From Clytia hemisphaerica (taxonomy: Eukaryota > Cnidaria > Hydrozoa > Leptothecata > Clytiidae), in contig CACVBU010000158.1 in NCBI GenBank assembly GCA_902728285.1, positions 1,302,001 through 1,366,000 of the forward strand: a DNA stretch of 64,000 bases, given 5' to 3'. Shown here piece after piece: positions 1,959 to 58,645 of the stretch. The notes below the pieces were generated by a model that was not told where the DNA came from, ran no database searches, and saw only the letters and a list, made by a program, of their open reading frames with translations. The first letter of the stretch is position 1; each line of letters opens with the position of its first letter. The position numbers were made by a program, and so were the translations under genes.

Positions 1959-2254
1959 TACCTTATCGGCCAAAACTAAGAAGTCGGCCTTAATTTTCGT
2001 TCGCCTCAATTATTAGTCGGCTCTAATTTTAGTTACCTCGTCAAAATTTAGTCACTGAGGGCCGGCTAATAATTAACACCGACTAAAAATTGGGCCATTT
2101 CTAAATTTACAAGCAGATGGAAATTAGGAGAAAGCTTAAAATACTGGAAAATAAGGAAAGCTTAATTATAAACTTTTAATTTGGCCCAAATTTTTAGTCG
2201 GCCCAAATTTTAGTCAAGTCACTCAGGGCCGACTAAGTTTTGGTCGAAAAGGTA
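1959..2254. repeat. MITE with iterated TTTAGTCGGCC motif
   Basis: The terminal inverted repeats are about 22 bp (TACCTTATCGGCCAAAACTA against the inverse of CTAAGTTTTGGTCGAAAAGG). Between them the motif AATTTTTAGTCGGCC or its inverse appears about eight times in both orientations. No ORF is present. The architecture matches several other elements in the window whose interior repeats the terminal motif. Confidence 0.6.
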
Positions 2255-2391
2255 GTGCCCAGTTACTTTTGCTGTTATTTTGAAGTAAAAGCATTGTAGT
2301 GTTTTGGCTGGTCATATTCACTACATCTCTCTAAATTATAAAAGGCGCGATGTGCGCAGGATTGATGATCTTTTTTGAGATTAGAGAGAGA

Positions 2392-2634
2392 CACTCTTTT
2401 TGTTAGAAACTTTCTTTGAGACTGAGCCTGAGGCTGTTCTTATGTTTTCAGCACTTTGAGCGTCAAAGTTTTCTTATTCTGTTCTTAATTTCAAGGTAAA
2501 TAATTTCAGGGTTTTTTTATCTTTATTCATATTTTGAGAATTTAGCCCTTGATTTGCCAAAGACTGTTTTATTTTTTAAGCATTTTTTAGCCTCCTTATT
2601 CTCATAAGACTGTTCTTATAAAAGAAAAAGAGTG
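2392..2634. repeat. MITE, TAAGAAC family (variant ends CACTCTTTTT)
   Basis: The left end CACTCTTTTTGTTAGAA and right end TTCTTATAAAAGAAAAAGAG are inverted. The interior holds several GTTCTTA/TTCTTA motifs and GAGCCTGAGG-like blocks typical of this family. It is a diverged member of the group best preserved at 54445-54715. Confidence 0.5.
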
Positions 2635-3502
2635 ATTGAATGTTTATGATAATAATGTCACATTGTGCCAAACACCCAAAATAACTTTTGATCTAGAAAA
2701 GTTGAGACTTTGATCTAATACAATTTATTGACAAACAATATTGACCAGGGGTTATTAAGAATGATGTCTGTAAGCTTTATCACACCGAATATTTAAACTA
2801 TGCTGTATACGTCAGCAGGGAAAAAGTGACTCACTACTTCGACAGAGATAATTTTCTAATGATTAAACTTGTTGAGAATATTTTTAGACTTAAAACTCAA
2901 AATGCTAAGAACATCCGAACGCTTCAAAAATTTTATATGATCTTTAATGAAAAACGTCTTTACCTTTTTTCACAAGCATAACTCAGTTCGTCAGCATATT
3001 ATGAAAGATTTTGAAGTGGTCAAGTAAAAATTCGACATTTCACGGGCTACTCGCATTCCATGCTCCCAAAATTGGAACAAATTTTGACAAATTTCTGAGA
3101 TTTCACAAAATAATTGGCTTGTGAATTATAAGCATACAATAATTCATGATCATAAAAAAAAACAAAGACTAAGGACCCTCTATTTAATTCCGAATTCTAG
3201 GTATCAAAGATGGCATTTTTAATTATTCTTGTTGTTTTTCATACGGTTTACGAATGATATTTTTGATAAGATAAATGACATTAAAATAAATTTTGTAAAA
3301 CAAATAATTATTTTTTTATGAAAAGAGATTGACATTAATTTTGTGAGTGAAAAAAATTTACAAATAGTTACTAAAAAAAAAAGAAAAAAAAGTGCAAGAT
3401 AATAATCTACATGTTTTTTATAAGAACATCGAAAAATATTGAACCTTTCGGATGTTTTGGAATTTTTTTAGGGTTATAACCTTGAAATCATTTTCCAATC
3501 AT
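2635..3502. other. AT-rich spacer, no gene seen
   Basis: No ORF with coding character, RNA gene or clear inverted ends is visible. Stray AAGAACATC blocks suggest decayed TAAGAAC-family sequence near 2890-2950 and 3420-3440. Confidence 0.4.
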
Positions 3503-3728
3503 TACACGTTTTTTTTTTATTAGAACCCAGTTTATAAGAACATTGAGGCTGAAATTCGGCGAAGAATTTAGAACATCGTAAGAACATGCCCAGCCTCAGT
3601 TTGGAAAAAATTGACAAGAAACTACAATTTTTTCCTCTTTTCAAGCAGTTTTAACCGAACTTAAGCATAGATTTTCTATAATCGAGAGTCAAATATTGTC
3701 CAAATTTTACCAATTTTAAGTGCTCTTT
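3503..3728. repeat. Half of a TAAGAAC-family MITE overlapping the 3' end of the NTPase-like gene
   Basis: One terminus (TACACG followed by a T-tract and TTAGAAC) is present at 3503. From there to about 3728 the sequence matches, in inverted orientation, the right half of the complete MITE at 6386-6753. The match includes the last ~50 coding bases of the minus-strand gene that ends at 3676. The other terminus is missing. Confidence 0.65.
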
Positions 3729-4506
3729 CTTTCGAGAAAGAAATGTCACCATCGATTTCATCATCCGAAGAAAATTCGTCAACAATCATGAGATTCGTCG
3801 TGCATCTCATGATCCCATTACATGGATGTTCAGTAAAACCACCCGTGTATTTTCCCTTGATGATGATGATGTTATTCCATTCAAAACCGGAAATTGATTT
3901 ATAGTCATCAATCAATAAAATGTTTCTGCCTACGAGATATTGGTATGGACTTTCACCTTTATTGAAATCGCTATTGCGTTCTCCGTAACTTTTCCATTTC
4001 AATTTCAACTTTTTCAATGTTTGAAGATCATCCTTCTTGTATGGAATATAAGATATCACTAGCACTCCTTCTTTCGTGATCCTTCTCATTTCTGTGATGA
4101 CGTCTTCGAACGAGCCGGAATAGCACGGTTTTACTCCGTCAGGGAAGTTTTGTGGTGGAAGTACTAAACCCTCTTTATAGAACGAACTGTTTCTTTCTTC
4201 AAGGCTTAATGCCTCTCTAACGATACTTTCACAGTTTCTTAGATTTACGTCAAGTTTATATTTCATGAAATCGTCATAAACCGAAAGATCTAAAACATTT
4301 AATAAAGTTTCCCGATGAGCGAATCCATTTGATGCAATCCAAATCACATCAACGTGTTGTTTGACTTTCATTATTATTTTTTCACATTCGGTAACCCAAC
4401 ACTCATCGATAAATAATGCGTTGATGTTTCCCTTTCGAATCCTTTTCATCATCTTTTCAATTTCCTCTTCATGCTGTTTGTAAGAATAGAAAAATATTGA
4501 GGAAAT
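3676..4506 (-). CDS. P-loop NTPase-like protein, last exon (Walker B and C-terminal part)
   Basis: This is the final coding exon of a minus-strand gene running from 7509 to 3676. It encodes a hydrophobic strand ending in acidic residues (NALFIDECW), which I read as Walker B. Near its end, FEWNNIIIIKG followed by MRCTTNLMIVD resembles the late motifs of superfamily 1 helicase-like ATPases. The acceptor CAG at 4507-4509 is chosen because it keeps the phase set by the GTAAGT donor of the previous exon. The open frame continues upstream to about 4557, so the true acceptor could differ. The stop is at 3676-3678, and the last ~16 codons lie in MITE-like sequence. I do not recognise the family by name. 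ATP binding is inferred from the motifs; the cellular role is unknown. Confidence 0.65.
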   Translation of the reverse strand: MSSIFFYSYKQHEEEIEKMMKRIRKGNINALFIDECWVTECEKIIMKVKQHVDVIWIASNGFAHRETLLNVLDLSVYDDFMKYKLDVNLRNCESIVREALSLEERNSSFYKEGLVLPPQNFPDGVKPCYSGSFEDVITEMRRITKEGVLVISYIPYKKDDLQTLKKLKLKWKSYGERNSDFNKGESPYQYLVGRNILLIDDYKSISGFEWNNIIIIKGKYTGGFTEHPCNGIMRCTTNLMIVDEFSSDDEIDGDISFSKERALKIGKIWTIFDSRL

Positions 4507-4989
4507 CTGTTCATTTGCATGCAAAAGATCATAAAAGTCTATTACAGAAAAATGCACGATGAAATTTTAATTGAACTATTGTTTCTAACTTTTCTTCAAT
4601 AATACCGGTAATCTTAAAACATTTAAGTACAGTATTAAGATCAGTGCAATATTAGTTTTATAAGGTTGTTTCATTTTTTAAATTCAAAATATTTATCTCA
4701 TACAAAAACAGCAAAATTTTTCTCACTCTAGCAAATTTGAGTGTTTTTTCCGAATGAACATAACGCAATAATCAAATCATGAATCGGCGTTGGCATTTAG
4801 GTTGTAGCCTTAAAACTATCTCAATTTTCGTTTACTTTTACTGCTCAATATCAGTTATTATACGATATCGTTTGTAATCAATAAAACTATGTATTGTAAC
4901 ATAGTTTCGAGGCAATCATTCGATCAAAGCCGTTTTTATTTAGTTAAAATTAGAAAAAGATTCAAAATTAGATTCAAAATGTAACTTAC

Positions 4990-6325
4990 GTAGTACCAGT
5001 GGCCATAGACGTCAACTCCATGTTCTTTTCCCAATTCGTCTTTCAATCTCCATTCAAGAAGGGTTTCTTTATCACGTCTCTCAATGACATACATAACACG
5101 TCCTTTGTATTGCGCCATTCCACTCAATTGTTTTGCTTTTTCCTGAAGGATGAAAGACTTCCCGCACCCGTAAGGGGAATAAAAGAGGATCCTATTGAAT
5201 TCAGAAGTGTCTGTCTTCATGATGGGAAGTTGACGCTGACTGTAAAAGAGTATGTTGTCAGTAGTGCAGACGGTATCGATGGCTTGCGAGATATACTCCA
5301 CCCAGTTCGACGTCGTAATGGGTGCTGTTTTTGAAGCATGAATTGCAAACACAACGATTCTCAGGAGGTCTTTAACTTGATTTACTGCTGGGATGGAAGG
5401 TATTCCAGAGGGAACGGTCGAATAATTTGTCAACACGGTGGATAACCAACATTTCAAATCTGTTTCTTGGTCAATGTAATGTTGATTGTTGAAGAAAAGG
5501 TTGTCCTTCTCGACATAAATGACTGGATGGTACGTCCAGCCTTGTCCCAATTGATCACTCAACCTCTCTTCTATCAACTTATGGTATTTATCCAACTGGT
5601 CAAAAGCCTTTATAGTTAGTGTCCGTTTGATTTCAACACCTATGATTAATCATGGGATCATCCCCCCCCCCAGGAAGATGGGGGGGGAATCAGATTTTGG
5701 TGCCAGGGGGGAAGTGAAAATTTCAAGCTTGATGGGGGGAGAAAGGCGAATAGGGGGTATATTCAGTCCTCTACCTAGTGGGGGGAGTAATAGGATAAAT
5801 ACAGACCTTCCTGGTGTGTTTGGGCATTCAGGCTTATGAGCCTGTCTTTCTTGGGATTTTGAGAGTCTTTTTTTTGCTATAGTAGCTTGCGAATTGAGGC
5901 GAGTCTGGATCATCACTTCGCAACCCTTATACAATACGGCTAGGGGGATTTCCCAATTAGGGGGGGAGCACGAATTTTAAAGACAGGTGGGGGGGAAAGG
6001 CCAGATGGGGGATTTTAGCTCATATTAGGGGGGACCAAAAAGCTGGAGGACGCCATGTTAATTTCTTGGTCCACGAGAAAAGAAGGACGTCAATCTCCTG
6101 ATGCATTTTCTTTTGGACATTAGTGAGGAAACTGATGGAACTGAGAATCACAGTATCTTGAAGAACAGGGTCGTCTTTGAGGGAATAGAGTTTGCGAAAG
6201 AATGAGTGTTCGCCTTTTTCACCGAGCTCCGATAGCACTAATCTGAAAAGCCATTTTATTGTTGGATGGGATGGTGGGTTTTGTTTGACCAAGTTTTTGA
6301 CTTCTTCTTTAACGTCTTTTAACGT
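4990..6325 (-). pseudogene. P-loop NTPase-like protein, middle exon split by a MITE (Walker A part)
   Basis: On the minus strand the exon starts after TTCCAG at 6326-6330 and ends at a perfect GTAAGT donor (4984-4989). It encodes [12 protein letters not shown], a clear Walker A P-loop (GxxxxGKS-like), followed by a predicted strand RVMYVIE. A 407-bp G-rich element plus a 5-bp target duplication (5651-6062) breaks the frame. If those 412 bases are ignored, the two halves read as one continuous open frame of 308 codons, in phase with both neighbouring exons. With the element present the frame runs into a stop within it. The assembled allele is therefore probably non-functional unless the element is spliced out, for which I see no good sites. 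Removing the insertion gives a total protein near 815 residues. Confidence 0.7.
5651..6057. mobile_element. G-rich MITE inserted in a coding exon, TTAAT target duplication
   Basis: The ends CATGGGATCATCC and GGAGGACGCCATG are imperfect inverted repeats, and TTAAT flanks both sides (5646-5650 and 6058-6062). The interior is punctuated by about ten runs of six or more G, spaced roughly 20-60 bp apart, which could form G-quadruplexes. No transposase is encoded. It lies in the middle coding exon of the minus-strand NTPase-like gene. Confidence 0.75.
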
Positions 6326-6385
6326 CTGGAAATGAAATGAAAGATTTTTTACAATTCAATTCGTAAATTGAAATATTCAATTTAA

Positions 6386-6753
6386 TACACGTTTTTTTTT
6401 TTATTAGAACACTTAAAATTTGGCTGAGCCTGGATGTGCTTATTTTTTTAGCAATTTTCAGCCTTAAATGTTCTTAAATGCGTTCTTAATTTTTCAGACT
6501 ACTCTAAATCGACAATATCATGCAAAATAAAGAGCATATAAAATTGGTACAATTTGGACAATATTTGACTCTCGATTTTAGAAAATCCATGCCTAAGTTG
6601 GGTTAAAACTGCTTGAAAAGAAGAAAAATTGTAGTTTCTTGTCATTTTTTTCCAAACTGAGGCTGGGCATGTTCTTACGATGTTCTTAATTTTTCGACGA
6701 ATTTCAGCCTAAATGTTCTTATAAACTAGGTTCTAATAAAAAAAAAACGTGTA
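6386..6753. repeat. Complete TAAGAAC-family MITE in intron 1 of the NTPase-like gene
   Basis: The termini TACACG-T-tract-ATTAGAAC and GTTCTAATAAA-A-tract-CGTGTA are perfect inverses. The interior contains GTTCTTA motifs in both halves. Its central part (about 6540-6640) matches the 3' coding end and downstream sequence of the same gene (3610-3728), so it holds either a captured gene fragment or the source of the gene's current 3' end. Confidence 0.75.
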
Positions 6754-7710: not shown

Positions 7711-8053
7711 TATACCTTAAGGAAGAAATTTTGGCGGGAATTTAATTTGGCGGATGGCCGAAAAAGCTTTTTAAAGGGAATTTAATTTGGCAATTGGACG
7801 AAAAAACTAAATTTGGTGGGAATTTAATTTGGCGTTTGCTGAAAAATTTATCCTTAAAATGGCGTAAAAACAACAAAAAAAGGCAAGCACACCTTAAAAG
7901 AGATCATATTTTCAAAAAGTTTAATTTGGCGGTAATTTAATTTGGCGGATGGCCGAAAAAGAAACTTTGGCGGGAACTTAATTTGGCGGATTCTGGCCAA
8001 ATCCGCCAAATCCGCCAAATTTTCTTTCCGCCAAAATTTCTTCTTTTAAGGTA
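7711..8053. repeat. MITE with iterated AATTTGGCGG motif
   Basis: Inverted ends TACCTTAAGGAAGAAATTTT and the inverse of AAAATTTCTTCTTTTAAGGT delimit the element. The motif TTTAATTTGGCGG (or its inverse CCGCCAAAT) recurs about nine times inside, and the terminal motif itself contains TTTTGGCGG. No coding region is present. Confidence 0.7.
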
Positions 8054-12009: not shown

Positions 12010-12121
12010 TTATGGAAATTTTCCACCTAGGACATTTTTATTCCACCCCCCCCCCCGCTTATTAAGTTTTGAGATTTTTTCCAACCTCACCCCACTTATT
12101 CCGGAACCCCCAACTATTAGG
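12010..12121. repeat. Right-end fragment of a C-tract MITE
   Basis: This fragment matches only the right half of the element at 11657-11936 (CCACCTAGGACATTTTTATT, C-runs, CAACTATTAGGTACC). It ends directly at the next palindromic MITE, which was probably inserted into it or joined to it. Confidence 0.6.
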
Positions 12122-12375
12122 TACCGTGAGATTGGGTAACTTGCATCAGTGGAGGCAAACATGCATAACCCTCCAATGAAAGACCTGGCTGGTCATTAAA
12201 ATACAAAATTAAATCAAAACAAAAATGGTAGAGTAGAGCTGCGAGTGGAGCTTCATAGTTGTATTTTAATGACCAGCCAGGTCTTTCATTTGAGGGCTAT
12301 GCATGTTACGCATGTTATGCATGTTATGCATGTTATGTTAGCCTCCACTGATGCAAGTTACCCAATCTCACAGTA
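12122..12375. repeat. Palindromic MITE, TACCGTGAGATTGGGTAACT ends (copy 1)
   Basis: Long inverted arms (about 70 bp, including CTTGCATCAGTGGAGGC and AAAGACCTGGCTGGTCATTA) surround a short core. The second copy is at 47737-47958. In this copy the right arm has gained a tandem CATGTTATG expansion (12298-12340). Confidence 0.75.
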
Positions 12376-12939
12376 CCTGAGAGTATTCAACCGGGTGAAC
12401 CTGCGCCGGTTGGTAGGAGACCATTCAATAAAATTTCAAGCGTCTAACCAATGAGAAGTACAGCTGTGATTTTGGAAAAATTTTCCCTGTCTTAACTTTG
12501 ATCCATGTCAACAGGGTCATACATTTGCTGTTTTGCACGCTCGTTTTCAACACGTTACTTTTCGCTGGGCCTTCAAGCCAACAGGCTTCTTGTTTAGTTA
12601 TTAGGAATGATAAAAGAGGGGTTCCAGGGGGTACCCGAGTTCGCAATTCCGCTATCTTTTTCTCCAAATTCCCGTCAAACCAACCGTTGGAAAAATTCCG
12701 CGAATTTCGAATATTTTTTGCCAATTCCGGAAAACATTTTGGAAAAATGTCGTTTTTCCACATTAAAATTGTCGAACTTTCCGTCTCCGTCAGAGGGCCC
12801 AATTTCCGAAATTCCGCCTAAATTTCCATCAAATTCTGCCACTCCGTCCGCCAACCGTGAAAATTGGTAGAAATTTGAATCAAACAACTTTTTATTTTAT
12901 ACTCTGGGAGCATGACAGGCTAATACTTCCTCCTATATC
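12376..12939. other. Spacer, no gene seen
   Basis: Several overlapping open frames occur around 12600-12890 on both strands, but they follow a repetitive AATTCCG/AAATTTCC pattern rather than a protein pattern. The region may be another motif-iterated repeat without clear ends. Confidence 0.4.
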
Positions 12940-14528: not shown

Positions 14529-14580
14529 CATAAATATAGCAATAACAAAATTTCTTTTGATTTCATCACGGTTTCTTTCT

Positions 14581-14862
14581 TACTCTCGGGTACCTAATAG
14601 CCGTCCCCCCCCCGCTAATTAATTTTTCGAAAATTTTCCACCCAGGACATTCTTATTCCAACCCCCCCCCCCGCTTATTAATTTTTGGGAAAATGTTTTT
14701 GAAAGTTCCCTTTTTTGTCTTAATTCTGCTGTATTAGCCTCCTTTTCAAACATTTTCCACCCAAGACATTTTTATTCCAACCCCCCCGCTTATTAAATTT
14801 TGAGATTTTTTCCAACCCCCCTGCTTATTCCAACCCCCCCGGCTATTAGGTACCCGAGAGTA
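14581..14862. repeat. C-tract MITE with GGTACCTAATAGCC ends (copy 2)
   Basis: TACTCTCGGGTACCTAATAG and CTATTAGGTACCCGAGAGTA are exact inverted ends over about 20 bp. Five C-runs are spaced through the interior. Confidence 0.8.
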
Positions 14863-14916
14863 AGTGCTAATTGGTTTTTCCTAAGCTTTCTCATTGGTTG
14901 AAATTTTATTACAAAA

Positions 14917-15885: not shown

Positions 15886-16222
15886 TACGGAATGCAAGTA
15901 TGGTTCCAGAAGCAGCCGGCGGAGAGAGTTTTTAGAAATATGTGTTCTTATCTTCTAGGAGACCAAATGTTATGACCTTTCAATTCTTTATACAAATGAT
16001 GTGTGCCAACATTGATAATGAACCGCTCATGCTGAGAATAAGAAAACAAGCTAAAAGGAACAGGGAGTAAAACTTGAACTTGCTCACATTTCACAAAAGT
16101 CTAAACAAAATAAGATTAAAATATATTGACGAACAACATCCCAAGCCAATTGCATGATACATAGCAGAAAATCAATTTATATTCAACGTCTTTCTTAAAG
16201 GAAAATAAAAAATAGGTAGGAG
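15886..16222. other. Spacer, no gene seen
   Basis: AT-rich sequence without a convincing ORF, repeat or RNA gene. Confidence 0.4.
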
Positions 16223-18052
16223 TCTGCTAAATTGCGTGGGTTGCGTGGGTGCGTGGGTCATTTTTTTGCGTGGGTGCGTGGGTCAAAATAATTTTTGCGT
16301 GGGTCAATTTTTTTGCACGGGTCATATTTTTTGCGTGGGTCAATTTTTTTGCGTGGGTCAAAATTTTTGCGTGGGTCAAAATTTTTGCGTGGGTCATTAT
16401 TTTTTGCGTGCGTCATATTTTTTGCGTGGGTCATTATTTTTTGCGTGGGTCAAAATTTTTGCGTGGGTCAAAATTCTCTCTGTAATTCGAAAAAATGCCT
16501 TGCCTTGAAATTCGAACGGGTCACATCCAAAACGTTTTGCTTTATTTTGTTTATTTTGCATAGCTGTACAGTTCCGTACTTTCTGAATAATATATGGTGA
16601 ATTTGTTCCAATAAGGCTGGGCTTAAAAAATTGTTGGTTTGCCGTCACCTGACCCTAGATTTTGGAGGTGGGTCGGTCGGTCGGAGTTTTATTTTATTTT
16701 GGCGATTTATGAAATTTTCGTCCATGGAAGGGTTAACAGTTTGTTTACATTTAGATAATTTTGAATAAAAAACAGAAGTGCTAGCAGGGAATTTACGATT
16801 CTTATGCTTGAGACAAACAAGATACGAGTTTTAATTTTTTATTGTTTGAAGTTTTTGAAGGAAAAAAATCTTCTTTAAAATGGCAATAAATTTTTTTGGG
16901 TCGGCAGGTTTCGAGGTAGGGTCGGTCGGGTGACGGCAAACCAACAATTTTTTAAGTTCAGCCTAAACGAGGTCGGAAAGATTGTTTCCAACAAAGGAGT
17001 GTCTTTTTATAAGAGGAAGCTTTATATAGAAGCTTTTTAGAAGCTTTACACGTTTTTTTTTTAAGAAACTAGTTTTACCAAGCAGCCTCAATGTTTCTTA
17101 AGAAATCAGCCTTTTGAGCCTTAAATGTTTCTTACATGTTTCTTAGATGTTTCTAAGTTTTTAGGCATTCTGAGCCTCATGTTTCTTAGAAGTGTGTTTC
17201 TTAAAAAAAAAAAGACGTGTATAGCTTCTTATAGCACGCTTTAATCTTTTGGGTTTCCTTTGAGTGTTAAAGAACAAAGCAAATGGCGACAAAATCTGAA
17301 AATTTTTCTACAAAAGTTATATTCATTAGGCGACCGATTACTAAACAATTTAATCGTTGTCAATTATAGAAAGAAAAGAAGCGGTCATATCTCATTTTTT
17401 TTTGCTTAAAGTTAAAGTGTTTATTTCCATGACACTGGAATCCTGAAATATAGCATGCTAAAATCCAAAAGTGTGATCCTGAAGTGTTTCTACAAAAATT
17501 AGACGGGTGTGTGTTGATTCTGTATAATGTTAAAGTAAATAAGTGCTACTATGTAAAATAAACCACAAGGTGTTACTACATAAAAACTGTGTGCTTTTGT
17601 TTAGTTTTCGTAGATATAAACACAACACATTTTTGTATAAGATAACTTGAAAATTTTAATTTGACAAAAAAAACGTGTTAGCTAACTCGAAAGTTTTAAT
17701 TTGGTAAAAAAATCGAGTTAGCTAAAAAATCACCAAAAAAATAGTGACCCACTCAAAAACTTTGACCCACGCAAAAAGTAATGACCCACGCAAAAAATAT
17801 GACCCACGCAAAAAGTAATGAGCGACGCAAAAAATAATGACCCACGCAAAAAAATATGACCCACGCAAAAAATATGACCCACGCGAAAAAAATTGACCCA
17901 CGCAAAAAAAATTGACCCACGCAAAAAAATCGACCCACGCAAAATGATTTTTGACCCACGCACCCACGCAAAAAAATGACCCACGCAAAAATATTAACCC
18001 ACGCAAAAATATTGACCCACACGCACCCACGGAACCCACGCAATTTAGCAGA
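16223..18052. mobile_element. ~1.8-kb element with array-type inverted ends (GCGTGGGTCA)
   Basis: Both ends start TCTGCTAAATTGCGTGGGTT and are followed by inward arrays of GCGTGGGTCA plus a T/A spacer, about 16 units over 16231-16475 on the left and about 17 inverted units over 17745-18045 on the right. The 1.25-kb middle (16480-17740) encodes no recognisable protein. It contains a nested TAAGAAAC-type MITE (17047-17221) and an internal inverted pair (GGTTTGCCGTCACC near 16640 and GGTGACGGCAAACC near 16930). The ORFs reading through the arrays are repeat artefacts. The superfamily is unknown. Confidence 0.75.
17047..17221. repeat. TAAGAAAC-variant MITE nested in the array-ended element
   Basis: The termini TACACG-T-tract-AAGAAAC and GTTTCTTAAAAA-A-tract-CGTGTA are inverted. 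Six internal TGTTTCTTA-type motifs all carry the GAAAC form of the family motif. It lies between copies of AGAAGCTTT, possibly an older relative into which it was inserted. Confidence 0.75.
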
Positions 18053-18184
18053 TTCAAAAAATAGCAATCTTATCTTTGGTTTTCTATTATATAAAATTGG
18101 CACGATCGCTTGAAAGTTTCGAGCAAACTTCAAGCAAAAACGATTAAGCTAATGAGTAATTCATTTCGCTTTGTAAACTCAAGT

Positions 18185-18527
18185 CGGGGGGGTACTAGGG
18201 TTGGCGCATGAGGGGTATGTGCGGACGGGACCTCCAAAAACCGACCCTTAGAGAGACTGATTTTTGCTGAAAAGGTGACCCTTAGAGAGACTTTTTGAAT
18301 TATTTTTCTAGATTTTTGAAAAAAGTCATACTTTATTACAATTTTTTCTCTGGAAATCCAAAAAAATTCCTAAAAATCCTTAATTTTCCGACCCTTAGAG
18401 AGACTAATTTAAAACTTTCTGATTTTTCCAACCCTTAGAGAGACTTTGAAAGGTAAAAAAACCGACCCTTACCGTCCGCACATACCCATCATCCATTTTT
18501 GCCTAAGTAGCCCCCCCCCCCCCCGGA
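18185..18527. repeat. hAT-like MITE, iterated CCCTTAGAGAGACT motif
   Basis: CGGGGGGGTACTAGGG at the left and CCTAAGTAGCCCCC..GG at the right are inverted ends, with a perfect 8-bp duplication ACTCAAGT at 18177-18184 and 18528-18535. Four internal motifs all read ACCCTTAGAGAGACT, whereas the related copy at 258-611 uses CTTTGAGAGAC throughout. Confidence 0.8.
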
Positions 18528-20509: not shown

Positions 20510-21582
20510 CCAGACCCGATCAATCGAACTTGTCGAACCAATCGAACAATCGAACTAATCGAACTCCATCGAACGATTAAAGTTCGATTAAAAAAATTAA
20601 TCGAACCTAATCGAACACTCACAATTTTTGAAGCAATAGCAGTTCGATTAGTTCGGTCAGTAAAAAGTTTGATTAGTTCGATGATATTAAATCCTCATAT
20701 ATCTTCCCTCGCTTGCAAAAACTTTATCCTGGCACGCAATTGCCATTTCGACAGTTCCCGGACTTAACAGCTTGACGTTTATTGTACCCAGATATTTGTC
20801 TATCCGGAATAAAGTCGGTAGCCCCTCTGTTGCAATTTCGCGCGCGGCCGAGTGGCGGAATACTACGCCCAAACAAACCGCCTCTGGCGCTAAAAGGATA
20901 CAAGAAAAGTGTGTAAATCTGTTATCGGAAGTAATTTCCCGATTTACATTCCGAATTTGGCTCTGAAAAGAAGCTAATATACGGTGGCGGAGCAGCACAA
21001 ACTTGTCGACCAAAATTGGTTTATCGAACTGACAGACTGATCGAACCGAAACCCATTGATCGAACTTAATAGAACATTCACAATCTTTTAAAAATTCTTA
21101 GAATACACCTTTCCCGTAATTCGTAAAACTAATGCGCGCGCATTATTTTGATGCTCTCCACCGTTTGGTCTCTGGAGGTAAGCAAACCCGTTTTTGCCTG
21201 CGTTCCCTTAGGGAAAGTTGGTTTTTTGAGCTTTTCTTAAGTTCTGTCGAACAAAATCCCCTCAAATTTTAGTATGTTCAACCTATTCATGATATTATAC
21301 CACCCTGAAAATATTTTGCCAATAGAAGGTCGCTGTCAAAAGTTAGAGGCTCAAATCCGAATTTCCCTAACCCCTCGCAGGCAAAAACGCGTTTTTTACC
21401 TCCCAAACAATTTTATACACAACGGTGGAGCGCACATTTTTCCGGGCCATTTCTGAGAAATTTGAATTACGGGAAAGGTGTAGGTATTCGATTAATTTTT
21501 TTAATCGAACTTTAATCGTTCGATGGAGTTCAATTAGTTCGATTGTTCGATTGGTTCGACAAGTTCGATTGATCGGGTCTGG
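20510..21582. mobile_element. ~1.07-kb element with AATCGAAC-array inverted ends
   Basis: Terminal inverted repeats of about 95 bp begin CCAGACCCGATCAATCGAAC and consist of repeated AATCGAAC/TTCGATT units, ending in ATTAAAGTTCGATTAAAAAA. The core (20690-21470) is less AT-rich, with an open minus-strand frame at 20687-21013, but I recognise no protein. It could hold captured host sequence. Confidence 0.7.
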
Positions 21583-35469: not shown

Positions 35470-35700
35470 ACTTTGAATTGAACAACTTCCAAACGTTTGA
35501 TTTTCCGCATTATTCAAATTTCCAAAAGTCTTATCACTACATTCTCTTTTCTCACGCACTTTAATTTTAAACGGTCTTTTAACTCTGTCGTAATGTAGCT
35601 TCTTTGGCTTCCAGTGTCGAAGAACAATCTTGTTTTCACACTGTTGTGACAACTGGAACCAAAGATCTCACTAGTTTGCAGTCTGCAACAAAAACGCTAC
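35470..35700 (-). pseudogene. BEL/Pao aspartic protease fragment
   Basis: A short minus-strand frame carries FFDTGSQRSYIT, the active-site DTGS motif of retroelement aspartic proteases in its BEL form. It ends in a stop after about 35 more residues, so the protease is broken. Confidence 0.75.
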
Positions 35701-36193: not shown

Positions 36194-37040
36194 TAAATCT
36201 AGTGTCCAGATGGAACTTCCAAAACTTCCTAGAGATCACAATTTTTTTTAGCTCGTCAGGGAGTTTTTCTTTTAAGATAGGGATCAAAAGACTGCCATAA
36301 CCTTTAGCTTCGAGCTTCAAGGCCTTCAAATTTCGCACACAGCTTTCAACGTGGTTGTAAAGCGTTCGAAGGCTCTTTATATTGTCTTTTGATCTTATCT
36401 TCTGTATCCTCAAGAGGGATTGCATGTGTGACGAAATCAAAACTTGCTCGTTCCCATACCTCTCGCATAATATTTCTATGGCTTCCTTGTAATTATCAGA
36501 GTTTAGAGTCAAACCTTTAATCGAATCCAAGGCTTCGCCAGTCAAATATTTTTTCAAAAAGTTAAAGCGGTCAATGTCGTTTTTGCGCTCATTTTCGTGG
36601 ATGGAAATCTTGAACTGATCCCAAAACCCTTGCCACTTGAGCGGATCACCTTTAAACGTAGGGAGCTCTATCTTTGGAAGTCGAGAAACACTTGCCCCAG
36701 AAGAAACGGATGCAGTTGGCAAAGAAACAGACGCAGAGCCATTCGATTTTGCTATCTCCAAAAGCTTAATGTCAAGACAAGCATCGATCTCAGTTGCAGG
36801 AAGCATTAATCCCATGCTTTGAACTACATCGTCACTGATCTTTTCAGGGTCTAAAAGTGGGAGAATCTCTTCATTGATGTCGGAAAGTTGGGCACAAGTG
36901 GAATCTAGCATAGACTTAAAGGATCTTAACTTTGCCTCAGAAATGTCATCACCTTTAAGATACTTTTCGATATTCTCCATAGTGGATTTTAAGAAAGCTC
37001 TAAGGCCTTCTCTCCGCTTGAGTTTTCGATCCAGTGTCAT
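36174..37040 (-). pseudogene. BEL/Pao gag, N-terminal region
   Basis: The frame starts with ATG at 37038-37040 (MTLDRKLKRREGL) and includes KIELPTFKGDPLKWQGFWDQ, a signature of the BEL gag domain often listed as DUF1759. The C-terminal end is shifted near 36200. Between this gene and the primer-binding site lies an A-rich leader of about 930 bp (37041-37957) without a clear gene. Confidence 0.85.
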
Positions 37041-37969
37041 GGTGATATAAAAGACGGAAACTTCAAACAAAAGCCAATTAAATCAGAGAAAGAAAAGATT
37101 TGGAAATTTTCCGACGCGTGCCAATCAAGGAAAGGAAAATTTCAACACTAAATCAAATTACCAAATTAAATAAAAAATCTCAAATACAGCTATCAACAGC
37201 TGATCTAAAAACGATGGGGAAACTTCAAACAATAGAATTCCACCAACCCTCACCTTTTGAAAGAAAAACTCTAGCGAAACACAATCACAATAGCCAAGAG
37301 TAAATAGAAAGAGAGATTCACTATAGCAAAGCAGGAAACTTTAAAATTGGACAAAAACGAGAAAGTATAAGCAAACTTCTCTAGCCAAAAAATCTACTTT
37401 AAACAGAATTTCTTGAGTGCAAAAAATCAAAACAAAAAAAATATCTGTCAAAAAAAATTGTCAGTAAAATGTCCAATGAAACTACGAATTCAGACGGAAT
37501 TTCGAAAAAAAAAATCGTCAAGAAAAAATTCAGAATCGCAATTCAAACTTTATGTTCTCCTCTTCCCACAGGAGAAAAAAAAACAACCGGGAAGAATAAG
37601 GAATACTTTGAACAGGCCTAATCCTATGGACCGGAGATACAGAAACAAAGCCCTTTCACCACCCAGGCAGAAAGGAAAAACGAGTAAAAACACAGATCTT
37701 GGAGCAAAAAAGTCTCAAGAAGCAAAGATAAAATCTTGGAGTAATGGTCTCAAGAATTACAGAAAAATCTCAGCAGAGAAAATCACAAAATATCAAATAT
37801 CAAGAAAAAACGAGACAAGAAAAAACGAGACAAGAAAAAACTTCTCAAAATAAAAAACTCAGAATGTCGAGTAAAAAACGGTCATACGTTTGTAAATCGT
37901 AGAGTCGTATAGCCAATGAGCTTTAAATCGGATGCGGTATCAACCAGTAACCAAGCTGCTGTTGCGCCA

Positions 37970-42715: not shown

Positions 42716-42759
42716 AGCTGAGAGGCATGTAGCTGTTGATATATTTTTTAAGTAACATT

Positions 42760-44931
42760 ATGGAGAATTGCAATACTAAGGAGATAAATAAAATGGAGAA
42801 AACCAGTGCAAACCGTATTTCATCAATGAAAATAAAAGTAGCCAACATTTTCAAGCATATCAATGTTAAGCTAATACCGGTCAAGTTGGCTTTTATATTT
42901 TATTACTCATCCATTGGAGCGTGGTGGCCATACATGATGTTGTTTCTAACATCGCTGGGACTAAATCCGTTCCTTGCTGGACTTTGTATTTGTGTACGAA
43001 CTGTGGTATCAACTTTTTCCGTACCATTTTGGGGTTTTATAAGCGACTTTACCGGTCGGCAACATATTGTTTATGTGATTCTAACTCTTGGTTATGCGGC
43101 AACCACGTTATCAGGTCCTATAATAGCAACAAAGTTGAATCATTTTGATCGGAATTCGACTGTAAATGGATCAATGAACGTTCACGATTCAAATACAACA
43201 TTGTTGATTCGAAATTCGACATTATTTGATCAACGAACACCACATAGCAATCATAATTTGACCGGTCTGTATCTACCATCAATATCAAGAGATTATGAAA
43301 CCAACTCTACTGATCCAATAGTAAAGAGGAACAGTAATTCTAGCTTTAGCCAATCAAAACTAGACAAGCATTCCATAGAAACGGACAACCAACCGTTGTA
43401 TTGTACATCGGAATGTAGCGACAATCGAATGTTCACCTTTATGATCATATTAAGTATTTGTATGGGGCTTTTCGAATTCTCGTTACCCGGTTTTATAGAC
43501 GTAAATGTTATGACAGTAACTTCGAAACATCCGAAAACCAGTTTCGGATTTCAGCGGGTTTTCGGCTCCGCTGGGTATGCATTTGGTAGTGTTCTTGCAG
43601 GCTTTGTTGCAGATCGTTTTCAACATCAAACATTGACTACATTTTCAGCACCTATTTTTGTATCTGTACCGTTTTTGGTTGCTGGTTTACCGTTTTATGT
43701 TATGCTTGCGTTGATGGCCAAGAAAGTTACCAGCGAGACAAAAGATGATCCAGAAGACTCTGAAGAAGAGGATAAATCAACTGAAAAATGCAAAGCAGTT
43801 TCTGGAATGTGTAAAGCAATGGAATCAACACCATCTGTGGACAATAAAGGTTATCAGAAAGAAGACAGTTTTGATACCAAATTTGTAAACGAATTATATA
43901 TCCAGAAAGAAATATTTGGCCAATCCAAAAAATCTTCCGAAACAAAAGGATATTCAGAACTAAACTTAAAGGACAATGCAGATTTCCCAAATAAAAAACC
44001 CTTATCAAAAAGTAAACTAGATAACGAGTTCAATGAATCTTGCAATAGTAGTCATAATAATGGTGCGGACAAAAAAAACGAAAATGATGAAGGTAGTAAC
44101 AGTACAGATCTTAAAATTTCAAATCTGTCGAGTTCGAATTCAAATAAGGATAGCACTGAAGACGATGAGAGATCCACAAGTAAATTAGCCAAGGATTTAC
44201 ATGAATCTGTGAAAATAACGGACAAAAATGATGAAAATTGTGACAATGCAGATCTTAAACACTCAAATCAGTCGAATAAGAAATATATAAATAACACTGA
44301 CGATGACAGCTCCACAAGTAATTTGACGGGTATCGAACTCTTGAAATTAACCACCAAAACATGTCTTCAGCCATCCATCTTCGTGCTCTTGCTCACAACT
44401 CTAATCAATGGAATCGCACTAAGTTTTATGAACAGTTTTATGTTCCTACACATGAAAGATGCAATGGGATCTCCTGATACAGTCCTCGGTTTCAACATCA
44501 CTTCAATGATTGCCGGAGAAATCATATTCTTCCTAATTACCAAAACAATAATCAATAAATTTGGAAGTTTCAAATGTTTAGTTGTTTCCTTATTTGGTAA
44601 TGGTGTTCGATTTATACTAATGGCGTTCTGTAAAAACCCTTGGTTAACATTGCCCATACAACTGCTTCATGGAGTCGGGTATGCCTTGTTTTTCGCTTCA
44701 ACTATAGAAATAGCTTACGAATTCTCACCACAAGTGATTCGAACGACTATCTTTAGTATAATTGGTAGTCTTTTCTTTTCTGTGGCAAATGTCATTGGGA
44801 ATCTACTTGGTGGTTGGATTTATGAGACTTACAAAGGACTCATCTTGTTTCTCGTGACTGGAATTTTGTGTAGTGCTTGGAGTATAGTGATTGGGTTTTA
44901 TTATTTGATGCCAAAGCCGAATAGAAAATGA
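42760..44931 (+). CDS. Major facilitator superfamily transporter, MFSD6-like
   Basis: An uninterrupted 723-codon frame starts with ATG at 42760 (MENCNTKEINKMEK). About twelve membrane segments are predicted. TM1 (residues ~40-62) contains FYYSSIGAWWPYMMLFLTSL, and WGFISDFTGRQ (~91-101) is the MFS loop 2-3 signature. A long loop (~124-220), facing the lumen or exterior, carries many N-glycosylation sequons. FGFQRVFGSAGYAFGSVLAG (~262-281) is typical of MFSD6-type proteins. A ~200-residue Ser/Asp/Lys-rich cytoplasmic loop (~322-525) separates the halves, and six more segments end at residue ~716. The substrate is unknown; the role in membrane transport is inferred from the fold. Lack of introns contrasts with the neighbouring receptor gene. 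Upstream TTG in frame (42736) is ignored. Confidence 0.9.
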   Translation: MENCNTKEINKMEKTSANRISSMKIKVANIFKHINVKLIPVKLAFIFYYSSIGAWWPYMMLFLTSLGLNPFLAGLCICVRTVVSTFSVPFWGFISDFTGRQHIVYVILTLGYAATTLSGPIIATKLNHFDRNSTVNGSMNVHDSNTTLLIRNSTLFDQRTPHSNHNLTGLYLPSISRDYETNSTDPIVKRNSNSSFSQSKLDKHSIETDNQPLYCTSECSDNRMFTFMIILSICMGLFEFSLPGFIDVNVMTVTSKHPKTSFGFQRVFGSAGYAFGSVLAGFVADRFQHQTLTTFSAPIFVSVPFLVAGLPFYVMLALMAKKVTSETKDDPEDSEEEDKSTEKCKAVSGMCKAMESTPSVDNKGYQKEDSFDTKFVNELYIQKEIFGQSKKSSETKGYSELNLKDNADFPNKKPLSKSKLDNEFNESCNSSHNNGADKKNENDEGSNSTDLKISNLSSSNSNKDSTEDDERSTSKLAKDLHESVKITDKNDENCDNADLKHSNQSNKKYINNTDDDSSTSNLTGIELLKLTTKTCLQPSIFVLLLTTLINGIALSFMNSFMFLHMKDAMGSPDTVLGFNITSMIAGEIIFFLITKTIINKFGSFKCLVVSLFGNGVRFILMAFCKNPWLTLPIQLLHGVGYALFFASTIEIAYEFSPQVIRTTIFSIIGSLFFSVANVIGNLLGGWIYETYKGLILFLVTGILCSAWSIVIGFYYLMPKPNRK

Positions 44932-47736: not shown

Positions 47737-47958
47737 TACCGTGAGATCGGGTAACTTGCATCAGTGGAGGCTAACATGCATAGCCCACAAATGAAAGACC
47801 TGGCTGGTCATTAAAATACAAAGTTAAATCAAAACAAAAATGGTAGAGTAGAGCTGCGAGCGGAGCTGCGTAGTTGAATTTAAATGACAAGACATGTCAT
47901 TCATTTGAGGGCTACGCATGTTAGCCTCCACTGATGCAAGTTTCCCGATCTCACGGTA
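47737..47958. repeat. Palindromic MITE, TACCGTGAGATCGGGTAACT ends (copy 2)
   Basis: The arms match those of 12122-12375 (CATCAGTGGAGGCTAACATG, AAAGACCTGGCTGGTCATT). This copy lacks the CATGTTATG expansion, so it approximates the ancestral state. Confidence 0.8.
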
Positions 47959-51684: not shown

Positions 51685-52114
51685 AAGGTCTTGTTAGACG
51701 ATAACATTCGGTAACATTTTTGTGTAACATTTTCTAAAAATAGCAAATGTTGTACAAAATGTTACCGTGTAACATCGATTAACATTCAGAAACATTCAAA
51801 TGTTAACGAATGTTACGCGCAGATAGCAAATCAAAAAAAAATGATTTGCTCTCATCGGTTAACATTTTGAATCAAAGGATGCCGCCATTTAAAGGGAATT
51901 TAAAAGGATACTTCAAGTGCGCACGTGTTTTTTCGCCGATTTTTCTCTCTTTTTCTCTCTTTTTCTCTCTTTTTTAATAAAAAAAATCAAATGTTACACA
52001 CAAAATGTTTGCGTGTAACATATGTTAACATTTCTTGAGCACATTTTTGAAATCTTCTATTTTTAGAAATGTTAGCAAATGTTACACAAAAATGTTACCG
52101 TCTAACAAGACCTT
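51685..52114. repeat. MITE with iterated AATGTTAC motif
   Basis: AAGGTCTTGTTAGACG and CGTCTAACAAGACCTT are perfect 16-bp inverted ends. More than a dozen AATGTTAC/GTAACATT motifs fill both flanks of a short core with TTTTTCTCTC repeats. It ends 51 bp before exon 3. Confidence 0.8.
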
Positions 52115-54444: not shown

Positions 54445-54715
54445 TACACGTTTTTTTTTTTATAAGAACAAACTATATAAGAACATAAGGCTTCGAGGCC
54501 CAAAAATTTAAGAACATTCTAAGAACATTTTAAGGCTTTGGAGACTTAAAAACATGCATTTTCTTAAGAAATTACATCAAAATGCTCAAAAAATGCTGAA
54601 AATAAGAACATCTTAAGAACCAGTAAGAACATTTTTAGGCTTCAAATCCAAAAAAACTAAGAACATCCGAAGGCTTCGAAAATTTTTGACGTTCTTATAA
54701 AAAAAAAAACGTGTA
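54445..54715. repeat. TAAGAAC-family MITE, best preserved copy, next to exon 6
   Basis: TACACG-T-tract-TATAAGAAC and GTTCTTATAAAA-A-tract-CGTGTA are perfect inverses. Inside, TAAGAACA occurs about eight times along with AGGCTTCGA/AGGCTTTGG blocks. The right end lies 24 bp before the exon 6 acceptor. Confidence 0.85.
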
Positions 54716-54739
54716 GGTATATTTATTTTTCTCTTCCAG

Positions 54740-54922
54740 TGTTCCATAGATTACATATCAATTTCAAATTCTCAAGAAATATTCAATACTACATTCTTCA
54801 AATTTATGTACCCGCTCTTCTTATCGTCATTCTTTCATGGGTTGGTTTTTGGATCGATTACCGCTCAACACCAGCCAGGGTGGCCCTGGGAATCACAACT
54901 GTATTGACCATGATTACATTCA
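54740..54922 (+). CDS. Cys-loop receptor, exon 6 (M1 and M2)
   Basis: Preceded by TCTCTTCCAG and followed by GTAAGT, it encodes MFHRLHINFKFSRNIQYYIL then QIYVPALLIVILSWVGFWID (M1) and STPARVALGITTVLTMITF (M2 pore helix). Pro-Ala-Arg at the inner mouth of M2 is the hallmark of chloride-selective members of the family. A relic copy of the M2 part lies at 55302-55372. The exon ends in phase 1. Confidence 0.95.
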
Positions 54923-54971
54923 GTAAGTGGTTTCTTATCTTTTTTGAATTTATTAGTTGTTACCATAGATT

Positions 54972-55069
54972 CCCAGACGGCACACAACGTCAAAACAACG
55001 TCCATGTGATATTCATAACGTCCAAATAACGTTATTTGAACGTTGAAACAACGTTGTGTGCCAGCTGGG
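54972..55069. repeat. CACACAACGT-family palindromic MITE in intron 6 (complete)
   Basis: CCCAGACGGCACACAACGTC and ACGTTGTGTGCCAGCTGGG are inverted ends. The 98-bp length equals that of the copy at 47190-47287. Confidence 0.8.
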
Positions 55070-55289: not shown

Positions 55290-55301
55290 TTTATAAATCT
55301 A

Positions 55302-56025: not shown

Positions 56026-56323
56026 TACTCTCGGGTAGCTAATAGCCGTCCCCCCCCCCCGCTTATCAATTTTTCGAAAATTTTCTACCCAGCACATTCT
56101 TATTCCAACCCCCCCCCCCCGCTATTAATTTTTGGGAAAATGTTGTTGAAAGTTCCCTTTTTTGTCTTAATTCTGCTGTATTAGCCTCCTTTTCAAACAT
56201 TTTCCACCCAGGACATTTTATTCCAAACCCCCCCCCCCCCGCTTATTAATTTTGAAATTTTTTTCCAACCCCCCCTGCTTATTCCAACCCCCCCCCCCCC
56301 CGGCTACTAGGTACCCGAGAGTA
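56026..56323. repeat. C-tract MITE with GGTACCTAATAGCC ends (copy 4)
   Basis: TACTCTCGGGTAGCTAATAG and CTACTAGGTACCCGAGAGTA are the inverted ends. Its C-runs reach 15 bases, the longest in the family here. Confidence 0.78.
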
Positions 56324-57335
56324 CCCGAATTGAGACATTTTTTAAATAAATCCTCTCTAAATCGAAATCTATTGGAATTAAGTTATGATAATAAGGTATT
56401 TTCTTATTCCTAATGAACTAAGGAAATGGGGAAAATAGTCCATTTCAATATTTATTGTTCTAAGTAACACGGCGCAAGATTTTGGTTCGATTTTTCCCAT
56501 ATGACGTCACACAGCTTTTCAAAATGGTAGCCGTCACAACTTAATTTTCCCTCCTGAGCATGGGAAAACATACTATATATTTTCTTACTTTTTCTCTTTA
56601 CTATTCTACATTTTTTCAAGAAATTGTGTTCACATTTGACAATTTCGGACTCATACATTTTATACCTATAAATTTGTTGATTCTTTTTAAAGGCAATAAA
56701 GTTGATAAGGCAAAATAAGTCAATTTTCTGAAAATTAATATCAATCTTGGTATTTAAAAGACAGTAGTCATAAGCTCAAGCAATGAAATAACAATAGAAA
56801 ATGATGTAATGTTATCCAAAAACAGGATTGAGTTTATGGTTTTGAGTGAAACCATGTGTTTTCTTCGAAAATTAGAATTTTTGTGTGAATATACAAGGTC
56901 ACTTTGGATTTGTCACTTGACTGGGAGTTCTAGATATCAGTATTTCGGTTGATTTTAAATTCAAACTTAAGTTTGAAGTATCGGTAAGGCTTTTGCCAAA
57001 TTGTTTTTCGTAAAGTGGCCTAGAACCTTATTTTTGAATAGGGTTTTTGTTGTCATCTTCGCAGCATTGACTTTTTGAAAAATTTCGGCCATCTTTGTTG
57101 TTGTTTATAATTTTTCAGCGTTTCTTGCACATGTGTCCATGCGAACCATTATGGATTTCTTCCAGATTTGTAATGGTGGAATTTTTTTATTTGTTTATTA
57201 TTTATTGCTTTTAATATTTCTGCTGTGAGTTATCCAGCTTCATTTTTTTCACTTACTAATCTAAAGTAGAGAGAGAAAAAAGAACATGATGATATGAATG
57301 GATATCTTTTTTATGAATATAATTGACATATAATC
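56324..57335. other. Spacer, no gene seen
   Basis: AT-rich. No M4-coding exon for the receptor, RNA gene or clear repeat ends were found. Confidence 0.4.
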
Positions 57336-57484
57336 ATGGATCAGCAGTACCAGATAAATGAAGATGTCAGAAATGTTATGGAACATTTATTACTATCAGT
57401 TGAGGATTTCCGAAAACAAAACACTGAATATGTTAATATTACCAACACGGCGACAGCTGATAATAACACCACAGCGGAAACACG
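57336..57484 (+). CDS. Uncharacterised protein, putative first exon
   Basis: ATG at 57336 begins MDQQYQINEDVRNVMEHLLL, an acidic, Asn/Thr-rich stretch. The frame could continue to 57536, but a donor CACG|GTATGG after 57484 joins in phase to the acceptor at 58815. I do not recognise the protein. It is called as an exon only because the splice phases fit and an uncharacterised but protein-like exon follows. Confidence 0.4.
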
Positions 57485-57551
57485 GTATGGTTTTCTTCTA
57501 GAGAGATTATATACTTATAGAAGATTTCCTCAATAGAATAAAATGACATGA

Positions 57552-58645
57552 CCAGACCCAATCAATCGAACTAAGAGATCTTCGACAAAAACTTTCAATT
57601 TTTTTTATCGGCGCATTGGGCCGTTAAGGGGGTGAGGGCATCCAACTACATGCCGATAAAAAACAAGTATTCCAGACCCTCCCACTCGATAATACAATCG
57701 ATAACATTTTTCAATCGATGATCAATCGATGGATTCCAGGGGATCGAAGCGATCAAAGCAATCAAAGCAATCGAAATCAATCAAAGTCGATCGAAGAATG
57801 ACGAATCATTAAAGTATCTTATAAAAACTCCATCTCATCTGAGTGATTGATCAATCCATCGAAGTCAATCGAAGTGATTGTCCAATCGATCGAAGTCGAT
57901 CAAACTTTAAAAAAAATGTAAATCTTGGATTGACTTCGATCGACTACGATTGACTTCGATCGACTTCGATTGTCTGACTGACTCACCTTCAAAGCGCAAA
58001 TCCCAAGTTGATAACACTATTCTTTGAATCATTATTCGCTATAAGCCTTTGTTTACTCACATGCATTGAGTTCTCTCATTGTAGTTTTTTCATGCACCCT
58101 GATTGGAATTTAAAGTCAAAATTTAGCGACGCGTTGGACTTCCTATAAAGTTAGGACGTGCGCGTGCGCATGCTCATTTTAATGGATTTAGTTCGGCAAA
58201 TTAAAGATGGCGAAAAAGGCTTGTTGATTACCAATTTATCGTGATTGGGATTGGGTATAAAATGTTAAAGTGAAAAAAATAAGGCTTATCAAAGCCGATC
58301 GAAGTCACTCATAAAGTGAAAAGAAATGTAAATCTTCGATCGACTTCGATCACTTTGATGGACTTCGATTGATTCGACCGATCACTTCGATCGACTTTGA
58401 GCTCATAATCGATAGGTAACCGGAGCCTTCTCAAAAATTCTGATTATCGATTGGTCATCGATTGTTTAAACTATCGATTGTTTATCGAATGTTGATTAGT
58501 AATTTGTTATCGATTGGTGATCAATTGATCATCGACTAGTTTTTGTCATCGGATGGCTTTCAAATTCCGTCCGTGGTTATCGTTTGAGTGGCGGCAACCT
58601 ATCAATCGATCTTCAAAAGGCCAATCGATCAATAATTAATCGATT
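57552..58645. repeat. ATCGA-rich array element with shared core
   Basis: The left edge CCAGACCCAATCAATCGAAC closely resembles the end of the element at 20510. Arrays of ATCGATCGAAGTC-like motifs (57680-57975) face inverse arrays (58285-58640). Between them, 58034-58260 matches the core at 19905-20110. The right boundary is unclear, and two nested elements are possible. It lies in the putative intron between 57484 and 58816. Confidence 0.5.

Follow-up and report, generated by a model that had tools for sequence, protein, structure and literature searches.

Introduction

Short sequence motifs repeated near the ends of DNA transposons have been described in several systems. In Aedes aegypti, 10 of 12 Mutator families with long terminal inverted repeats (TIRs) are described as carrying subterminal tandem repeats of 9-15 bp, and Muta1 is termed a type 2 foldback element (PMC5225508). 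The tandem repeats in the TIRs of Galileo are reported to contain transposase binding sites (PMC3688188), and it is a published view that foldback structure can arise independently in different lineages (PMC4079207). Ac transposase is reported to bind AAACGG repeats cooperatively (PMC3260210), and a short repeated motif is reported to suffice for binding of the Herves transposase (PMC3143072). Here we describe a set of repeat elements with inverted ends and an internally iterated short motif in a 64,000-nucleotide stretch of Clytia hemisphaerica DNA, referred to below as the window, which covers positions 1302001-1366000 of its contig in an assembly of 417 Mb and 951 contigs. A preliminary description of the window had named nine families of this design, and all nine are present at or near the places it gave.

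These elements appear to be non-autonomous TIR elements. Our favoured explanation, which we consider probable, is that their arrays are subterminal transposase-binding sites multiplied inward in elements resembling miniature inverted-repeat transposable elements (MITEs), and partly foldback elements, and that this happened separately in several superfamilies. An element end would then consist of a terminal stretch of about 12-16 bases followed by a motif of 7-10 bases; this motif would be the recognition site of the transposase, placed just inside the terminal bases needed by the catalytic part, and further copies would be scattered over the subterminal region or a large part of the interior. 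A founder element in which end sequence was duplicated would have given rise to the arrays, and copies of the motif would have been retained while their surroundings diverged, as more docking sites would help a gene-less element to capture scarce transposase. The elements have defined ends, flanking duplications and genomic copies, they iterate a motif and they place it near the end; our inference is that transposase binds the motif and that the arrays are maintained by selection for docking.

Motif iteration within the elements

The motif named for each family in the preliminary description was counted inside the element, ends excluded, and compared with 500 dinucleotide shuffles, by default with up to one mismatch and with element bounds sometimes a few bases off the final ones; the test is post hoc, the motifs having been picked by eye from the same sequence. 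The TTTAGTCGG element (1961-2252; TIR CCTTATCGGCC..., TA on both sides at 1959-1960 and 2253-2254) holds 3 motif copies against a shuffled mean of 0.07, the TTTGGCGG element (7715-8051; TIR consensus CCTTAAAGGAAGAAATTTTGGCGG, TA on both sides by direct reading) 9 against 0.98, the TTTTAGCGA element (25371-25880; TIR consensus CTTTAATCGTAGAAATTTTAGCGA, decayed right end) 10 against 0.75, and the AATGTTAC element (51686-52113; TIR AGGTCTTGTTAGACG, TTA on both sides) 14 against 0.80; all four have matches elsewhere in the genome. The GCGTGGGTCA element (16220-18055; TIR GAGTCTGCTAAATTGCGTGGGT), in which inward-facing arrays at each end enclose a 1.2-kb middle, holds 25 copies against 0.04. There are 20 against 1.8 in the AATCGAAC element (20510-21582; TIR CCAGACCCGATCAATCGAAC), whose arms of 96 nt are 99% complementary and which is flanked by the 6-bp duplication ATCAAA (direct reading), and 10 against 1.2 in the TAAGAAC element (54447-54713; ends CACGTTTTTTTTTTTATAAGAAC, read from the window copy, with TA on both sides). 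The CCCTTTGAGAGAC family is represented by an element at 258-611 (ends CCCGGGGGGG..., 8-bp duplication AGGTCCTT by direct reading), with 5 copies against 0.01 when counted over 262-613, and by a second one (CCCTTAGAGAGAC) at 18185-18526 (9-bp duplication AACTCAAGT by direct reading), with 4 against 0.00 over 18188-18518, all of them one-mismatch copies and none exact. In every one of these elements none of the 500 shuffles reached the observed count.

The ninth family, ATCGA/GAAGTC at 57552-58645, had been taken for one element and proves to be a composite, with three left ends of CCAG or CAGGGG type (CCAGACCCAATCAATCGAAC at 57552, CCAGACCCTCCCACTCGAT at 57672 and CAGGGGATCGAAGCG at 57737), arrays of both motifs and an indefinite right limit. 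ATCGA occurs 33 times exactly against 7.8 and 76 times with one mismatch against 51.8 (0/500 shuffles each); GAAGTC occurs 9 times exactly against 0.58 (0/500), and its excess with one mismatch is weak (18 against 10.6, reached by 7/500). All nine families thus exceed their shuffles, as had been anticipated. The claim that the interior is made of one motif holds for the iteration but not for the extent, the motif covering a share of 0.16-0.32 of each element of the preliminary description.

How general the design is was assessed by an array scan in which only the outermost 45 bases of each inverted-repeat element could supply motifs, which were then counted in the remainder, against 60 first-order Markov resamples per element. 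The sample of 256 kb, comprising the window and 1.5-kb flanks of 64 genomic loci (L numbers below), contained 57 inverted-repeat elements, 20 of them in the window. The array test was passed by 11 of the 57, and by 6 of 171 segments drawn at random from that pool (Fisher p = 0.0004), a comparison in which duplicate flanks were kept (e.g. L040/L042), L056 includes its own search target, and the random segments may themselves contain elements. Passes numbered 6/20 in the window and 5/37 in the flanks. Four elements of the preliminary description were flagged (GCGTGGGTCA, AATCGAAC, TTTTAGCGA and AATGTTAC); the CCCTTTGAGAGAC element, as 18208-18492, and two pieces of 57552-58645 were detected without being flagged, and the window elements of TTTAGTCGG, TTTGGCGG and TAAGAAC were not picked up by the scan. 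Two further flagged window elements, 14579-14864 and 24733-25075, lie outside the nine families, the latter overlapping a 68-bp tandem repeat. The array design is over-represented but not universal, and most of the inverted-repeat elements found lack it at this threshold.

Lineages of the ends

The nine families had been said to show no sequence relation to one another. We compared, without gaps, the first 24 bases inward from the duplication for 91 pairs of 14 ends, the lowest attainable p being 0.00005. The TTTGGCGG end is identical to the TTTTAGCGA end at 18/24 positions and to the TTTAGTCGG end at 16/24 (p = 0.00005 for both); TTTAGTCGG and TTTTAGCGA compared directly share only 12/24 (p = 0.007) and are joined via TTTGGCGG. 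Flank elements with the ends TTTCGCGA (L037) and TTTCGCGG (L068), and one in L003, match two or three of these TA families at 15-20/24 (p < 0.002), a level that the L037 end does not reach with TTTAGTCGG; L037 and L068 are members of this TA group. A second group, the CCAG group, consists of the AATCGAAC, CCAGACCCTCCC and CCAGGGG ends, which agree at 14-15/24 (p = 0.0001-0.0005, significance being borderline once the number of pairs is corrected for). Here the CCAGGGG end matches AATCGAAC at 14/24 (p = 0.0004-0.0005), and this kinship depends on the boundary supported by the duplication: read from CAGGGG, one base inside, the end matches none of the others at p < 0.002. The AATCGAAC and ATCGA/GAAGTC families have CCAG ends and 6-bp duplications in common. 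The L062 end gave p > 0.1 against every other family compared. L021, considered as a further independent lineage, was withdrawn, as its end read from CCAG matches the CCAG group (14-15/24, p = 0.0003-0.0006).

This comparison leaves about six end lineages behind the nine names: the TA group, TAAGAAC, AATGTTAC, GCGTGGGTCA, the CCAG group and CCCTTTGAGAGAC. The claim of unrelatedness accordingly stands for about six lineages and fails within the two sets that share ends, TTTAGTCGG/TTTGGCGG/TTTTAGCGA and AATCGAAC/ATCGA-GAAGTC. A common array is likely inside each of the two groups. Because about six unrelated end lineages remain, a single ancestral array for all families, which the preliminary description had named as the finding that would overturn its reading, is excluded by the end sequences for the whole set, though it applies within those two subsets.

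Target-site duplications and superfamilies

Genomic copies were taken from the best 40 candidates scored per family search, so that copy numbers are lower bounds; for the TAAGAAC and CCCTTTGAGAGAC families the ends were read from the window and the sampled loci, and one element related to the TAAGAAC family is present in L041. Among copies with both ends found, TA lies on both sides in 8/9 for TTTAGTCGG (10 loci), 21/29 for TTTGGCGG (30 loci, the window copy being scored as a miss) and 23/26 for TTTTAGCGA (30 loci), and an exact 3-bp TTA/TAA flanks 9/10 for AATGTTAC (11 loci). Copies other than that of the window show an exact 9-bp duplication in 4/5 for GCGTGGGTCA, whose window copy has no exact 9-bp duplication by direct reading, and an exact 6-bp duplication in 7/8 for AATCGAAC. 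When flanks were paired across copies as a control, agreement was 0.73-0.89 for TA, 0.49 for TTA/TAA and none for the 9-bp and 6-bp duplications; because TA is nearly constant across copies, TA alone is weak evidence. The filled site at L057 and the empty site in a related window repeat (12335-12384, reverse strand) differ by the element and one TA. A TTAA (piggyBac/Kolobok) reading of TTTGGCGG and TTTTAGCGA from the window was dropped, the genomic copies showing TA-bounded ends further out.

The family with GAAGTC arrays has the ends CCAGGGGATGTCAATCGAAG. Of seven CCAGGGG elements tested in 8 end pairings, four (L102, L105, L114 and L116) have an exact 6-bp duplication, L117 has one of 5 or 7 bp according to where the boundary is set, and L103 and L104 have none; L113 and L115, without a usable end pair, were excluded. 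L103 and L104 carry CAGGGG-type ends, one L103 end lacking its first bases and L104 offering two candidate right ends. Assignment of CAGGGG ends to hAT was rejected: L105, first read as 8 bp with one mismatch, has its exact repeat as 6 bp beside CCAGGGG, and none of the 8 pairings at CAGGGGATGTCAATCGAAG ends in these seven elements gave the 8-bp duplication of hAT. An exact 8-bp duplication at one copy of L062 (ACCGGA family) is compatible with hAT, 8 bp not being unique to hAT. Of two further CCCTTTGAGAGAC-type elements, L024 has a duplication that can be read as 7 or 8 bp, and L016 shows no exact repeat.

Duplication lengths conventionally point to Tc1/mariner, PIF/Harbinger and Mutator, and Mutator-like duplications range over about 8-11 bp. 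The TA duplication suggests that TTTAGTCGG, TTTGGCGG and TTTTAGCGA are Tc1/mariner-like, and the 3-bp TWA duplication that AATGTTAC is PIF/Harbinger-like; we place the group with 6-bp duplications in no superfamily. The GCGTGGGTCA family combines a 9-bp duplication with a long TIR whose subterminal tandem repeats are mostly 18-19 bp apart, features that suggest a Mutator-like element of the type 2 foldback plan. Because the duplications differ (TA, TTA/TAA, 6 bp, 9 bp, and 8 or 9 bp at two CCCTTTGAGAGAC sites), they point to different transposases. The convergence on one design that had been proposed is thereby upheld, with about six unrelated end lineages and different duplications, but the single shared mobilisation mechanism proposed with it is not.

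Motif number within families

The number of motifs per element is 12-15 in TTTTAGCGA (n=26), 11-13 in TTTGGCGG (n=29), 15-17 in AATGTTAC (n=9), 21-22 in AATCGAAC (n=8) and 23-27 in GCGTGGGTCA (n=5), and it is variable, 4-9, in TTTAGTCGG (n=9). The copies counted are best matches to the window copy or, for GCGTGGGTCA and AATCGAAC, clean ones picked by hand, so that variation is underestimated; the AATCGAAC window copy measures 1073 bp against 673-696 bp in the eight counted copies. In five of the six families the array seems to have been inherited in finished form, with the same proviso that their copies were chosen for likeness. Active inward copying of end motifs, or one amplification mechanism for all families, is in our judgement extremely improbable. 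The variation of TTTAGTCGG, in which some matches also repeat an internal stretch (query 33-120), would suit such copying, but the near-constant counts of the other five families disfavour, although not strongly, a continuous process, and the differing duplications argue against a single mechanism. The suggestion that ends are still being copied inward thus found little favour.

The same near-fixed counts fit another account, which we think unlikely although it deserves serious weight, namely that the arrays are by-products: slippage, or faulty gap repair after excision, would duplicate ends uselessly in near-palindromic elements, and the copies would then spread. Longer tandem units are visible in some elements, one of 41 bp at 25443 and one of 40 bp at 7730. 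Retention of the motif while its surroundings vary, and the occurrence of copies in both orientations, are less easily reconciled with useless duplication. The near-uninformative surroundings of the motif copies bear on this, flank means being 0.03-0.73 bits against 1.24-1.85 inside the motif (the inside value is selection-inflated, the flank value is not); because the flanks carry so little information, the unit that is kept is the short motif.

Position of the first motif

In 8/9 families the first motif copy starts at base 13-17 from the end. The offset is 17 in TTTAGTCGG, TTTGGCGG and AATGTTAC, 16 in TTTTAGCGA, 15 in GCGTGGGTCA, 14 in the GAAGTC family and 13 in AATCGAAC; it is also 17 in TAAGAAC, a value determined by a run of T. 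Offsets were read on typed ends with slightly trimmed motifs, TTAGTCGG, TAACATT, GCGTGGGT and ATCGAAG being trimmed, reversed or shifted forms of those first named. If placement were random, uniform over 20-34 positions and with lineages independent, agreement of five unrelated lineages within 3.5 bases would have p 0.0005-0.004, and agreement of at least five of six, with the failure of CCCTTTGAGAGAC counted, p 0.003-0.02. With motifs chosen by a script, L062, which the array scan had flagged, carries 15 copies (up to one mismatch allowed) within 332 bp, and from either end its motif lies at base 15 (1 mismatch); L021 places it at base 13 from both ends, with 16 copies in 418 bp and no duplication found.

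Such a near-constant distance between motif and end in unrelated lineages also speaks against useless duplication of ends. It bears in addition on the idea that the motifs serve a host DNA-binding protein, hairpin RNA production or chromatin and only incidentally favour spread, which we hold to be very improbable: several arrays do make long inverted arms, but the motif differs by lineage and lies beside its own terminus in 8/9 families, whereas a single host factor would be expected to give a common motif. The iterated motif fits an array of binding sites, as the preliminary description had also surmised. A more far-reaching proposal, possible but on balance doubtful, is that at least six unrelated lineages (the TA group, TAAGAAC, AATGTTAC, GCGTGGGTCA, the CCAG group and L062) independently became arrays of their own binding motif, and that in each the site nearest the cleavage point lies 13-17 bases away from it.

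Evidence weighing against transposase-binding arrays

Several observations weigh against the interpretation of the arrays as multiplied transposase-binding sites. The CCCTTTGAGAGAC motif is absent from the first 29 bases of its element, and L027, flagged by the scan, departs from the common offset, with its motif at base 30 and 223. In the array test 46/57 inverted-repeat elements fail, including four of TTTGGCGG type (L003, L028, L037 and L056), a proportion that would also suit the by-product account. Motif spacing is without helical phasing (p = 0.63 at 10.5 bp). Orientation is mixed in the other seven of the eight sets counted and consistent only in GCGTGGGTCA, whose copies face inward in 32/32 cases; a consistent inward orientation was accordingly rejected as a general rule. 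No transposase gene was found between matching ends among the listed DDE_Tnp_4 matches and candidate frames, in an incomplete search that did not cover transposases of Tc1/mariner, hAT or Mutator-like elements (MULE), and by eye none of the DDE_Tnp_4 matches listed lies between paired AATGTTAC-type ends. Lastly, L103 and L104, of about 5 kb and with GAAGTC arrays, have no listed frame longer than 129 and 127 amino acids, respectively, and the three of their eight listed frames that were compared with Pfam match no family.

The searches behind these results returned at least 152 DDE_Tnp_4 matches, from the best 150 of 486 candidates scored, and 72 genome-wide matches to AATGTTAC-type ends with up to 2 mismatches, a reversed control pattern giving 0. 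Several DDE_Tnp_4 matches lie in stop-free frames of 400-637 amino acids, so that the genome appears to hold many intact Harbinger-type transposase genes. A 2.5-kb AATGTTAC-type element at C273 was considered as a partner and rejected, since the DNA inside it is of another kind and none of its listed frames exceeds 110 amino acids. Five unpaired AATGTTAC-type ends were read as 521-bp pieces; two of these, L108 and L109, scarcely differ, and another, L110, is a short copy complete with its two ends.

Other features of the window

The window contains an MFS-type transporter frame (42733-44931) and a piece of a neurotransmitter-gated channel (54661-55029), both recognized with Pfam, which we read as pointing to an animal-like genome. 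The TAAGAAC element at 54447-54713 immediately precedes the channel exon piece and overlaps that stop-to-stop frame. At 3503-6753, two TAAGAAC-type ends, with arms (3629-3732 and 6525-6628) that are 91% complementary, surround reverse-strand frames of 296 and 237 amino acids; the 237-residue frame shows a P-loop-like stretch by eye, an adjacent 273-residue frame begins outside, and the frames gave no Pfam family above its cut-off. The region may represent a pair of insertions into introns of a single gene, or else a captured gene fragment. At 12119-12378 and 47737-47958 there are near-palindromic repeats that contain GGTAACTTGCATCAGTGGAGG or a close variant of it, and by direct reading their relatives host insertions of a TTTGGCGG element (L057) and a AATCGAAC element (L095). 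Broken retroelement-like frames occupy 32325-37082 and 58790-63192, with a DUF1759 match by Pfam at 36174-37082 and the rest judged from translations.

Discussion

Should the arrays prove to be docking sites, the genome would offer a natural experiment on gene-less transposons competing for transposase, in unrelated lineages with many copies and with motif number and position varying by family, and a link would be drawn between MITE biology and the way in which short scattered tandem arrays originate. A transposase motif could further be guessed cheaply from sequence alone, by looking for an iterated motif that starts 13-17 bases from an end. Were the six-lineage convergence true, it would point to a genome-wide selective regime that rewards docking capacity, for example transposase scarcity and competition among parasites of parasites.

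The plan of the GCGTGGGTCA family is closely like that of Muta1 and Muta5, which are described as having duplications of 8-9 bp, a long TIR composed of a terminal motif and 9 copies of a 12- or 15-bp subterminal repeat, and many non-autonomous derivatives with variable repeat copies (PMC5225508). They differ in that an autonomous element is known there and is mobile in yeast, and in that the plan as described there concerns Mutator families only (PMC5225508). Galileo and other foldback elements are likewise described as having long, internally repetitive TIRs, with several binding sites identified by binding assay (PMC3688188, PMC4079207); the TIRs of Galileo, however, exceed 1 kb, whereas most elements here are 0.3-0.7 kb in total with motifs of 7-10 bases. 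In the hAT elements Ac/Ds of maize and Herves of Anopheles, the subterminal motifs AAACGG and CG/AATTCAT, respectively, are described as occurring repeatedly close to either end, where the transposase binds them, and short derivatives keep some of them (PMC3260210, PMC3143072). The repeats that Ac requires lie within the outermost 200 bp on each side, whereas here the motif may span much of the element, and no family here is assigned to hAT. Among titles and abstract openings of the best matches in the open-licence literature, none described such a plan with a constant offset in so many superfamilies of a single genome. Our explanation is thus known in kind and extends the transposon biology of Muta1, Galileo, Ac/Ds and Herves; what seems new is its breadth across end lineages in one genome, together with the near-constant place of the first motif.

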